From Haloferax larsenii JCM 13917 (lineage in GTDB: Archaea > Halobacteriota > Halobacteria > Halobacteriales > Haloferacaceae): a DNA stretch of 64,000 bases. The notes under the pieces are model-generated. The model searched no databases, was not told the DNA's origin, and worked only from the letters and a program-made list of their open reading frames with translations. The stretch's first letter is position 1. Every line of letters begins with the position of its first letter. The translations under genes were made by a program, and so were the position numbers. The stretch is taken from positions 136,358 to 200,357 of the forward strand of contig NZ_AOLI01000012.1 of NCBI RefSeq assembly GCF_000336955.1, written 5' to 3'. This document shows positions 24,210 through 27,265 of the stretch, piece after piece.

Positions 24210-24917
24210 TCACACGTCTCTCAGGTCGAGGATGGCCTGATAGTACGTGGCGACGATATCGAGGGCCGAACCGACCTCCTGGTGGACGTCTCGGCGCGCC
24301 CACTCGTCGTGGCGTTCTGCGCCGGCGACGAAGTACTGTGCGAGCGTCTCGACGGTATCCGTGTCTGCTTTTGGAACCATGCACGCGAGTTTGATGCGGT
24401 GCGCACGACGAGCGGCAGCGCGCCATCCATCGCGTTTCTGTCCGTGCATCCGCCAAAATCGGACGTGAAGCGTGGCGTACTCGGGGTCGATACCCACCTC
24501 GTCACACGCCGCTTCGAGGAGTCGCTCGCAGTCTGCCCACCGAGCGTCGTCGTCGATACTGGTCTGGACCATCGCCTCCACGTCGGAGACGAAGACATCG
24601 TCGGGAACCTCGTGGGTAAAGCAGTGAGTGAACGCCTCCTGATTCTCGATTTCGTCCTGCACGAAGAGCGCACGCATGAATAGCTCACCTGCTCGCTCTG
24701 ACCTCGGCGATGGAACGTCCGGGAACTCGAAGCGGAACGCCTGAGACATGTGTGCTTCGGCGCTCTCGGCGGCCGCTCGCGCCGCGTCGAACTCGCAGTT
24801 CGTGAGGTGCGTCTCGCGGAGGTCCTGATGGTAAAACCCCAAAAGGAGGGCTTCAGCCGCGTCGAGAGCGCGGGTCGTTGGAGGCGACGCGTCGAGAGTT
24901 GGCAGTTTTGTCATCAT
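24210..24917 (-). CDS. Helical protein of unknown function
   Basis: The 235-residue product is predicted mostly helical and acidic. It contains a possible His/Cys pair (TNCEF, CFTHEVPDD near residues 39 and 99) and a C-terminal segment rich in aromatic and Ala residues (DIVATYYQAILDL). I recognise no family. ATG at 24917 or 24914 would both serve as start. The gene sits upstream of the PAS histidine kinase on the same strand with 69 bases between, so a shared role in signalling is possible but unproven. It is not a response regulator: no phospho-acceptor Asp context was seen. Confidence 0.7.
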   Translation of the reverse strand: MMTKLPTLDASPPTTRALDAAEALLLGFYHQDLRETHLTNCEFDAARAAAESAEAHMSQAFRFEFPDVPSPRSERAGELFMRALFVQDEIENQEAFTHCFTHEVPDDVFVSDVEAMVQTSIDDDARWADCERLLEAACDEVGIDPEYATLHVRFWRMHGQKRDGWRAAARRAHRIKLACMVPKADTDTVETLAQYFVAGAERHDEWARRDVHQEVGSALDIVATYYQAILDLRDV

Positions 24918-25030: not shown

Positions 25031-25843
25031 TTACCTGATGCGTCCGACGCCCGTGTCGAAGACGCGGGCGTTCGGCACGATGTACTCCTCGTCTTCGGAC
25101 TCGATGCGTGTGACGAAGACGTCGAACTCCTGGACGACGCCGCGAACGTCGCCGACGACGATTTCGTCGCCGATGGTGTAGGGCTGGGAAAACAGCAGAT
25201 ACGTCCCAGCCGCACCGGACCGAAGGAGGTCACGGAACGCGACAGCGCTGAGGACGATGAGACCCAGCAGATACCCACCGAGGAGGACGATGAGAGCGAG
25301 GGTCGCGACGCCGACCTGCGAGAGCGCAACGAGTGCGGCTAGGAAGAAGACGGTGTACTTCGCGAGCGACGGCAGGATGTTCACCTGTGGGAGTTTCACG
25401 CCGCGGAACCGCTCGGCTACGAGGAGTTCCACCTTGTCGCCGACGACGATGCCGACGATAAGGACGATGATGGCGATGAACAGTTGCGGGAGGATGGCGA
25501 TGACGAGGTTCCAAAACCTGTCTGCGTAGTTGACACCCGCAACCGAGAGTGCGGCGAAGATGGTGACGCCGAGGAGGAAGTACCGCGTCAGCCACGAGAG
25601 GATTTCGACGGTCGAGGTCTCGAAGTCGCGGGCGGTCCGTTCGAACGCCGTGCCCTCGATGGCGTCGGGAAGACCGACGCCGATCAGGAGTCGCTGGACG
25701 GCTGTCCCGGCCGCATAGGCCAAGATGAGTCCGACGAAGAGGACAGCCACCACCCCGATGAACCGCAGGCCGACCAACTCGACGATTCGTGTGACGATGG
25801 TATCGACCGGTTGGAGTGGGAGGGGCGCGACAAACCCCGTCAT
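25031..25843 (-). CDS. MscS-like mechanosensitive channel protein
   Basis: The 270-residue product has four hydrophobic segments at about 27-47, 83-103, 117-140 and 166-207. The last runs into a pore-type helix, GGYLLGLIVLSAVAFRDLLRS, and a beta domain, YTIGDEIVVGDVRGVVQEFD...RIESEDEEYIVPNARVFDTG. This is the MscS core. The large C-terminal cytoplasmic domain of E. coli MscS is missing: the chain stops just after NARVF. Its start is one base after the stop of dacZ, so the two genes are translationally coupled, linking a c-di-AMP synthase with an osmotic safety-valve-type channel. Confidence 0.88.
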   Translation of the reverse strand: MTGFVAPLPLQPVDTIVTRIVELVGLRFIGVVAVLFVGLILAYAAGTAVQRLLIGVGLPDAIEGTAFERTARDFETSTVEILSWLTRYFLLGVTIFAALSVAGVNYADRFWNLVIAILPQLFIAIIVLIVGIVVGDKVELLVAERFRGVKLPQVNILPSLAKYTVFFLAALVALSQVGVATLALIVLLGGYLLGLIVLSAVAFRDLLRSGAAGTYLLFSQPYTIGDEIVVGDVRGVVQEFDVFVTRIESEDEEYIVPNARVFDTGVGRIR

Positions 25844-25844
25844 T

Positions 25845-26654
25845 TCAGTAATCCTCCGGGTCGATTTCGAGAATCATCTTGCCACCCTTGAACGCGCGAA
25901 CCAGCCCGTCAGACTCCGAGAGGACGATTGCAGTCGCGTTCGTGTCGCGGGTGATTGCGCCGCCGGCCATGTGGCGCGCGCCGAGGCCTTTCGGGATGTC
26001 CACGCCCTCGGCGGAGGGTTCGAGATAGCGGTAGGCGGAGACGATTTTCCCCGAGTCGGAGATGACGAACGCGCCGTCGAGGCGCGAGAACTCCTTGAGC
26101 ATGACGTTCACGATGGGGTCGCCGACGTAGACGTGAGACTTCTCGAAGGGGTTGTACGAAAGCGGCCGGGACTTGTTCATCACGTTCCCGGCGTCGCCGA
26201 CGATGAACAGCGCGCCGACGGGTTCGCCCTTCTGTCCCTTCTTTCCGAGTTCGATAGCGACTTCGAACACGTCGCGGATGACGCCGGGGTCCGCGCGGGA
26301 GTTGGCGAACAGGTCGTAGATGCCCGAGCGCATGTTCTCTTCGACGCGAACGCGGACCACCGAGTCGGGGTCGCCGCCGAAGATGCCGACGTTGCACGCG
26401 ATGTCGTCGCCCGCCTCGACGATGTTCTGTTCCATCGCACCCTCGACCCCGAACCGGATGCGGTCTTTCACATTTTGGAATTGGAGCGGGAGTTCGACGA
26501 ACGGCTCGGCCTCGACTGTATTCTCCGGGGCGATAACGACCGTCGGGACATCGAGGTCGGCGAACCGCTCGTAATGCGAGTGGCTCGGCGTGAAGAGAAA
26601 CAGCCCGTCGACGTCCGACACGAGGTCGTCCAATATTTCGGATAGCGCCACCAT
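25845..26654 (-). CDS. dacZ: Diadenylate cyclase (c-di-AMP synthase)
   Basis: This condenses two ATP into cyclic di-AMP. The 269-residue product ends with a DAC domain (about 140-260) showing the catalytic LDGAFVISD (D193-G194-A195) and GARHMAGG (R227-H228-M229) motifs. The N-terminal about 130 residues are the archaeal DacZ-specific region. An upstream open frame continues to 27071 but overlaps the globin gene and is not coding. ATG 26654 has a TTTTTCTC TATA-like element about 27 bases upstream. DacZ of Haloferax volcanii is an established c-di-AMP synthase. The next gene is an MscS-like channel. Confidence 0.95.
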   Translation of the reverse strand: MVALSEILDDLVSDVDGLFLFTPSHSHYERFADLDVPTVVIAPENTVEAEPFVELPLQFQNVKDRIRFGVEGAMEQNIVEAGDDIACNVGIFGGDPDSVVRVRVEENMRSGIYDLFANSRADPGVIRDVFEVAIELGKKGQKGEPVGALFIVGDAGNVMNKSRPLSYNPFEKSHVYVGDPIVNVMLKEFSRLDGAFVISDSGKIVSAYRYLEPSAEGVDIPKGLGARHMAGGAITRDTNATAIVLSESDGLVRAFKGGKMILEIDPEDY

Positions 26655-26674: not shown

Positions 26675-26686
26675 TGAGAAAAAGGG
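26675..26686 (-). promoter_or_regulatory. TATA element of dacZ-mscS
   Basis: CCTTTTTCTC (minus strand) is centred about 26 bases upstream of ATG 26654. Confidence 0.4.
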
Positions 26687-26730
26687 TTGTGTCGTGTCTG
26701 ACGCTTGTCGTGCGTCCGACCGACGCTATT

Positions 26731-27093
26731 TCACTGATTGAGAATTGGGGCGCGAAGTGCTTCGACTTCGTCGAGAATCGCCGCCCGGTTCGACTCGGAG
26801 ACACCGTTGTCTCGGAGGGCCACTTCGAGGTGGTTGGCGATGGCGTCGAAATCGTCGCCTGTGAGACCGAGGTGCGCGTGTGCGTCGCGCATGTCTTCGC
26901 CGTCGTACTCGACCGGCCCACCGGCCACGGCACTGATGAACTGCACCTGATGAGCGTGTTGCTTCGCCATATCCGTGTCGTCGAAGTAGTGGGCGACCGA
27001 CTCGTCGGCAAGCACGCGGTCGTAGAAGTCCGAGACGACTGCGTCGACGGCCTCGTGGCCACCGATTTCACTGTAGAGGGACTGGTCTTGCAT
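26731..27093 (-). CDS. Truncated haemoglobin (group I/II-type)
   Basis: The 120-residue product begins MQDQSLYSEIGGHEAVDAVV, the usual A-helix opening of truncated globins. FYDRVLADESVAHYFDDTDM gives the B-helix Tyr and the CD corner. The proximal His lies in DAHAHLGLTGDDFDAI near residue 75-77. Such proteins bind O2 or NO and may protect against nitrosative stress. The start is at ATG 27093; an in-frame ATG-like extension to 27117 is less typical. It stands alone, upstream of dacZ on the same strand by 76 bases, with its own spacer. Confidence 0.92.
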   Translation of the reverse strand: MQDQSLYSEIGGHEAVDAVVSDFYDRVLADESVAHYFDDTDMAKQHAHQVQFISAVAGGPVEYDGEDMRDAHAHLGLTGDDFDAIANHLEVALRDNGVSESNRAAILDEVEALRAPILNQ

Positions 27094-27265
27094 CCATCGG
27101 TGAGTTGTCCATCGCACCAGTAAGTTTGACTCCGAACAAATTCGGGGTAGTTTTGAGTGATGACAAAGTCGGGTATTTAAATGGTTATTGGTACCACACC
27201 ACGTATTTGACTGTGAGTTTCGGAATTCCAGTTCGGGTGTGTACCCGTCGCTGTGGCGTCAGTGC

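Follow-up and report, generated by a model that had tools for sequence, protein, structure and literature searches.

The haloarchaeal dacZ-mscS2 gene pair as a probable bicistronic operon for a c-di-AMP synthase and a cage-less MscS-type channel

In Haloferax volcanii, the diadenylate cyclase gene dacZ (HVO_1660) and mscS2 (HVO_1659) were described as an operon that was reported to be present in all haloarchaea (Braun et al., 2019, PMC6741144). The pair is therefore already known, and an osmoregulatory link was proposed there as well. The same study showed c-di-AMP synthesis by the H. volcanii DacZ and found that dacZ is essential and that low c-di-AMP leads to enlarged cells in hypo-salt medium only. 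Deletion of mscS2 was viable and slightly reduced growth, again in hypo-salt medium only, and MscS2 was therefore judged not to be among the main targets of c-di-AMP in the conditions tested. Overexpression of dacZ is lethal in this species, where the cell-division regulator CdrS binds at a site 47 nt ahead of the dacZ start site (PMC8406309). Closely spaced gene pairs have been investigated more broadly in the same organism: 9/9 tested pairs, whose genes overlap or are separated by no more than 10 nt, were strictly coupled, with variable dependence on a Shine-Dalgarno (SD) sequence (Huber 2019, PMC6728339), and coupling was nearly lost at a gap of ~20 nt (Huber 2023, PMC10666635). An intragenic SD is frequent in these termination-reinitiation pairs, not required. 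The main texts of the two studies do not list dacZ-mscS2 by locus name.

The locus considered here lies in a window of 64,000 nucleotides (the whole stretch of DNA that was analysed) from Haloferax larsenii and has both genes arranged as in the operon of Braun et al., which comes from the same genus. Its features are, in the direction of reading:

26676..26692, minus strand: BRE/TATA-like promoter element ACACAACCCTTTTTCTC, ~26-34 nt upstream of the dacZ start codon, a spacing of the leaderless type
25845..26654, minus strand: dacZ, diadenylate cyclase of 269 aa (NF041371, PF19294 and PF02457 matches), ortholog of HVO_1660 of H. volcanii
25853..25857, minus strand: SD core GGAGG, part of the dacZ codons for P-E-(D) and 9 nt upstream of the mscS2 start codon
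25841..25847, minus strand: stop-start junction TGA-A-ATG with a 1-nt gap, from the sequence
25031..25843, minus strand: mscS2, cage-less MscS-family channel of 270 aa (PF05552 and PF00924 matches, AF2 model), ortholog of HVO_1659 of H. volcanii

DacZ is matched over its full length (residues 1-269) by the halo-specific NCBIfam equivalog model NF041371, with 491.3 bits against a cut-off of 430, and Pfam divides it into a DACZ_N domain (1-123) and a DAC domain (141-260). The catalytic DGA and RHM motifs, described as intact in the original prediction, occupy residues 193-195 and 227-229 and occur in 134/134 orthologs. The structure model depicts a soluble alpha/beta protein with no apparent membrane segment, matching the solved cyclase domains of DisA and CdaA. 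No other DAC gene accompanies dacZ in the H. larsenii genome; the DacZ of the nearest named relative, H. elongans, is 99% identical.

On the minus strand, the dacZ TGA (25847-25845) is separated by the single base 25844 from the mscS2 ATG (25843-25841), which confirms the spacing of one base on the same strand that had been predicted. The adjacency, whose absence elsewhere would have spoken against the original prediction, is conserved in related genomes: mscS2 lies directly downstream of dacZ in all 134 measurable haloarchaeal loci, a set of 79 named genome contigs, the H. larsenii genome and 54 further genome loci that spans the family-level groups f1 to f11 and counts some species twice, since two collections overlap. 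With the mscS2 start taken as the candidate nearest the dacZ stop, a choice that favours small gaps, the distance between the genes is -1 to +6 nt in 133 of these loci (-1 nt in 42, +1 in 41, the others from 0 to +6) and +11 in the remaining one, and the start codon is ATG in 131/134. A chance in-frame start this close to the dacZ stop would be the exception, not near-universal. Tight spacing as such is ordinary in haloarchaea, 560 pairs of H. volcanii being -8 to +10 nt apart versus 910 separated by more than 20 nt (Huber 2023, PMC10666635); judged from the sequences, it is the conservation of the spacing, rather than its tightness, that exceeds chance. A single 532-aa frame in one further locus, L045, resembling a natural DacZ-MscS2 fusion, was rejected and not used as evidence: the end of its dacZ is frameshifted, one base being missing immediately ahead of the stop codon in what is a metagenome assembly.

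DacZ was found in 241/242 sampled Halobacteria genomes and an MscS2-like protein in 242/242; in the sole sampled haloarchaeon without DacZ (the complete genome G128), the best MscS2 match reaches only E 2e-6, against ~1e-50 or better elsewhere. By this criterion, G128 is without a close MscS2 ortholog as well as without DacZ, in what is one case. Outside the class, on the DNA examined, a search of ~2.5 kb around 40 DAC genes sampled from other Halobacteriota yielded no MscS gene, and three outgroup Halobacteriota genomes had no mscS next to their DacZ-like genes. In these three (L144, L145 and L146), the DacZ-like gene is situated directly downstream of thiC.

Signals for the expression of the pair are unevenly placed. 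AT-rich peaks precede dacZ at -34 and at -26 to -29 (132 loci), and a TATA-like hexamer is found before dacZ in 64/132 loci versus 2/134 before mscS2, where no counterpart of the promoter element was seen in the 134 loci. What does precede mscS2 is the end of dacZ. The DacZ tail reads D-P-E-x-Y-stop, and GGAGG is written into the codons of this tail in 121/134 loci, GAGG in 134/134, thirteen loci having GAGG without the full GGAGG. The 16S rRNA of the H. larsenii genome ends in GGATCACCTCCT, whose CCTCC is complementary to GGAGG. In descriptive counts by parsimony on a DacZ tree built without the tail residues, position x (codon -2; E, A, D, G or V) underwent at least 21 amino-acid changes and 0 changes in its first base G, an invariance of the first base seen in just one other of 61 comparably variable columns; the third base of the Glu -3 codon changed 0 times versus 4-23 times in eight other conserved Glu columns, and that of the Pro -4 codon 8 times versus 17-42 times in nine other Pro columns. 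In the outgroup, where no mscS adjoins the gene, all three DacZ-like proteins are without the D-P-E-x-Y tail. From this pattern of substitutions, the SD core appears to be kept by purifying selection. The structure model is ordered in the C-terminal block of DacZ (mean pLDDT 85), and for this reason a reading of the tail as disordered and shaped by the RNA alone was rejected; since the model is ordered there, the D-P-E residues may be under protein-level constraint too.

These observations bear on the notion that mscS2 simply borrows the promoter of the essential dacZ, the order being inherited and the two products having no functional relation beyond adequate expression. The order could go back to one event in the common ancestor of the Halobacteria, and mscS2 is nearly free of phenotype in H. 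volcanii (PMC6741144). However, the immediate neighbours vary while the pair stays (the upstream globin is near dacZ in 12/79 loci, just 2 of them outside Haloferax), the SD core appears selected, and the lone genome without DacZ is also the one without MscS2. Taken together, passive inheritance of the order seems a rather doubtful account of the pair.

With the H. volcanii termination-reinitiation pairs (PMC6728339, PMC10666635), dacZ-mscS2 shares the range of the gap, an intragenic SD and a single upstream promoter; coupling was measured in the former and is predicted for the latter. Given this likeness, the conserved SD and the promoter located only before dacZ, translational coupling at this junction is very likely. 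Co-production of DacZ and MscS2 is well supported by the class-wide adjacency, the promoter before dacZ alone, the reinitiation-type junction and the conserved intragenic SD, so that this half of the original prediction stands; mutual control of c-di-AMP level and channel, its other half, is taken up below. The probable reading is thus a haloarchaeal bicistronic operon in which synthase and relief channel are co-produced in a fixed relation for hypo-osmotic adjustment. One promoter ahead of dacZ would give a single transcript with both cistrons, and we infer that the second is reached via termination-reinitiation: a ribosome ending DacZ would be held by the GGAGG in the last dacZ codons and restart a few bases away at mscS2, so that the essential c-di-AMP synthase and the small cage-less MscS-type channel would be made in a fixed relation. 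Its most likely physiological sense would be that, as external salt falls, c-di-AMP curbs osmolyte uptake and MscS2 answers the same challenge with a leak gated by tension; binding of c-di-AMP to the channel would not be needed. Against this reading counts that the dosage needs of the genes differ, since overexpression of dacZ is lethal and mscS2 dispensable in H. volcanii; the thirteen loci with GAGG alone and the possible protein-level constraint on the DacZ tail weigh against it too. The passages of Braun et al. considered here are silent on several points which, measured against the open-access literature, this analysis adds: the SD within dacZ and its class-wide occurrence, the pattern of the junctions, the absence of the cage from the channel, and the joint loss of dacZ and mscS2. 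The predicted class-wide coupling of dacZ to a cage-less stretch channel offers a simple genetic test.

The channel itself is unusual in its architecture. Above cut-off, MscS2 has only two Pfam matches, PF05552 and PF00924, the latter (pore helix and beta-domain) at 40.6 bits versus a cut-off of 20.2; a C-terminal MscS domain was not found by the Pfam search. In its AF2 model (pLDDT 92.9), about five helices span the membrane, followed by a beta-domain; the model matches the folds of MscS and YnaI with Z 11-13.6 in structure comparison, and ends in alignment with EcMscS residue 179, right after the beta-domain, in agreement with the predicted absence of the large C-terminal domain. YnaI-type channels align with MscS2 from about residue 33 to 270. 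Among the eight MscS-family proteins of the H. larsenii genome, MscS2 alone is without the C-terminal domain, with 7 residues past the beta-domain match versus 116-181 in the other seven, and since 134/134 orthologs end just 12-15 residues past the invariant N258, all of these are without the cage. MscS2 has PDB 9sdg (a 171-aa chain) as its best sequence match. It is presumed to conduct.

A cytoplasmic alpha/beta cage is a typical MscS trait, not a universal one, and cage-less MscS channels are rare. The miniature MscS of Trypanosoma cruzi, TcMscS (PMC12334622; PDB 9BGQ), like MscS2, consists of pore helices and a beta-domain without this cage, and the two structures superpose with a VIA Z of 11.5 over 125 residues. 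They differ in that TcMscS, having no TM1, possesses just two membrane helices, compared with about five helices in MscS2. The MscS2 family represents a second natural case, beside the T. cruzi protein, for probing the purpose of the MscS cage.

Direct gating of the channel by bound c-di-AMP would accord with the conserved adjacency of dacZ and mscS2, and in bacteria c-di-AMP regulates osmotic transporters. Among the Pfam hits of MscS2, however, there is no RCK_C, CBS or USP domain, a search that covers known domain types only. Matches of the beta-domain to Hfq/AMP were traced to the Sm-like fold which this domain has in MscS proteins and were not counted as a nucleotide site. The genetics of Braun et al. 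(PMC6741144), with the viable deletion and the conclusion drawn from it, weakly oppose such gating, and the genetic link between c-di-AMP and the MscS channel YfkC of B. subtilis comes about through a gain-of-function mutation enabling glutamate export (PMC7857571). Direct gating is accordingly very improbable, and mutual control as originally predicted is not borne out, MscS2 having no known c-di-AMP-binding domain and being dispensable in H. volcanii with a mild hypo-salt defect (PMC6741144). Among candidate partners, MscS2 is the most conserved.

In bacteria, the DAC enzyme CdaA carries its own membrane helices and is encoded with a membrane partner, CdaR. The dacZ-mscS2 pair likewise encodes a DAC enzyme with a membrane partner; unlike CdaA, DacZ shows no membrane helices, and unlike CdaR, MscS2 belongs to the MscS family. 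The pair might, with some reserve, be likened to a split counterpart of that system, in which DacZ and MscS2 form a physical complex and the channel, whose beta-domain is exposed to the cytosol, acts as membrane-tension sensor and anchor adjusting DacZ activity. Such a complex is plausible, if unlikely, because in H. volcanii 45% of short-gap pairs encode heteromeric complexes versus 5.6% of long-gap pairs (PMC10666635) and because the beta-domain is left open without the cage, the domain otherwise covering it being missing in 134/134 orthologs and, within the genome, from this MscS protein alone. The soluble DacZ model fits the idea as well. On the other hand, DacZ works without MscS2, since mscS2 can be deleted and dacZ is essential (PMC6741144). 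More speculative still is a specific version in which DacZ is docked during its translation to the open cytosolic face of MscS2, a tension sensor without a cage, and the output of c-di-AMP is set by the stretch of the membrane; if true, this would be a two-component counterpart of the membrane-anchored CdaA, conserved across Halobacteria.

The surroundings of the pair are less constant. A truncated-globin gene (26731-27117, minus), which immediately precedes dacZ and is read in the same direction, is retained in its vicinity almost exclusively in Haloferax and, in view of its low frequency near dacZ, was rejected as a third operon member. Downstream of mscS2, a 235-aa ORF (24210-24917, minus) has no Pfam or NCBIfam match and occurs near the pair in few other genera; the purD-side genes ~2 kb downstream are retained in 56/79 loci. 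A separate family of short DAC-domain proteins (~190-200 aa), with no NCBIfam or PADLOC match, was not found in the H. larsenii genome. It is distributed patchily over 97/242 Halobacteria genomes (e.g. L147:4926-5525, minus) and is sometimes truncated or broken by stops. Despite the essentiality of dacZ in H. volcanii, G128 has no DacZ; it carries two copies of this short family, and the DGA and RHM motifs are present in a G128 copy.
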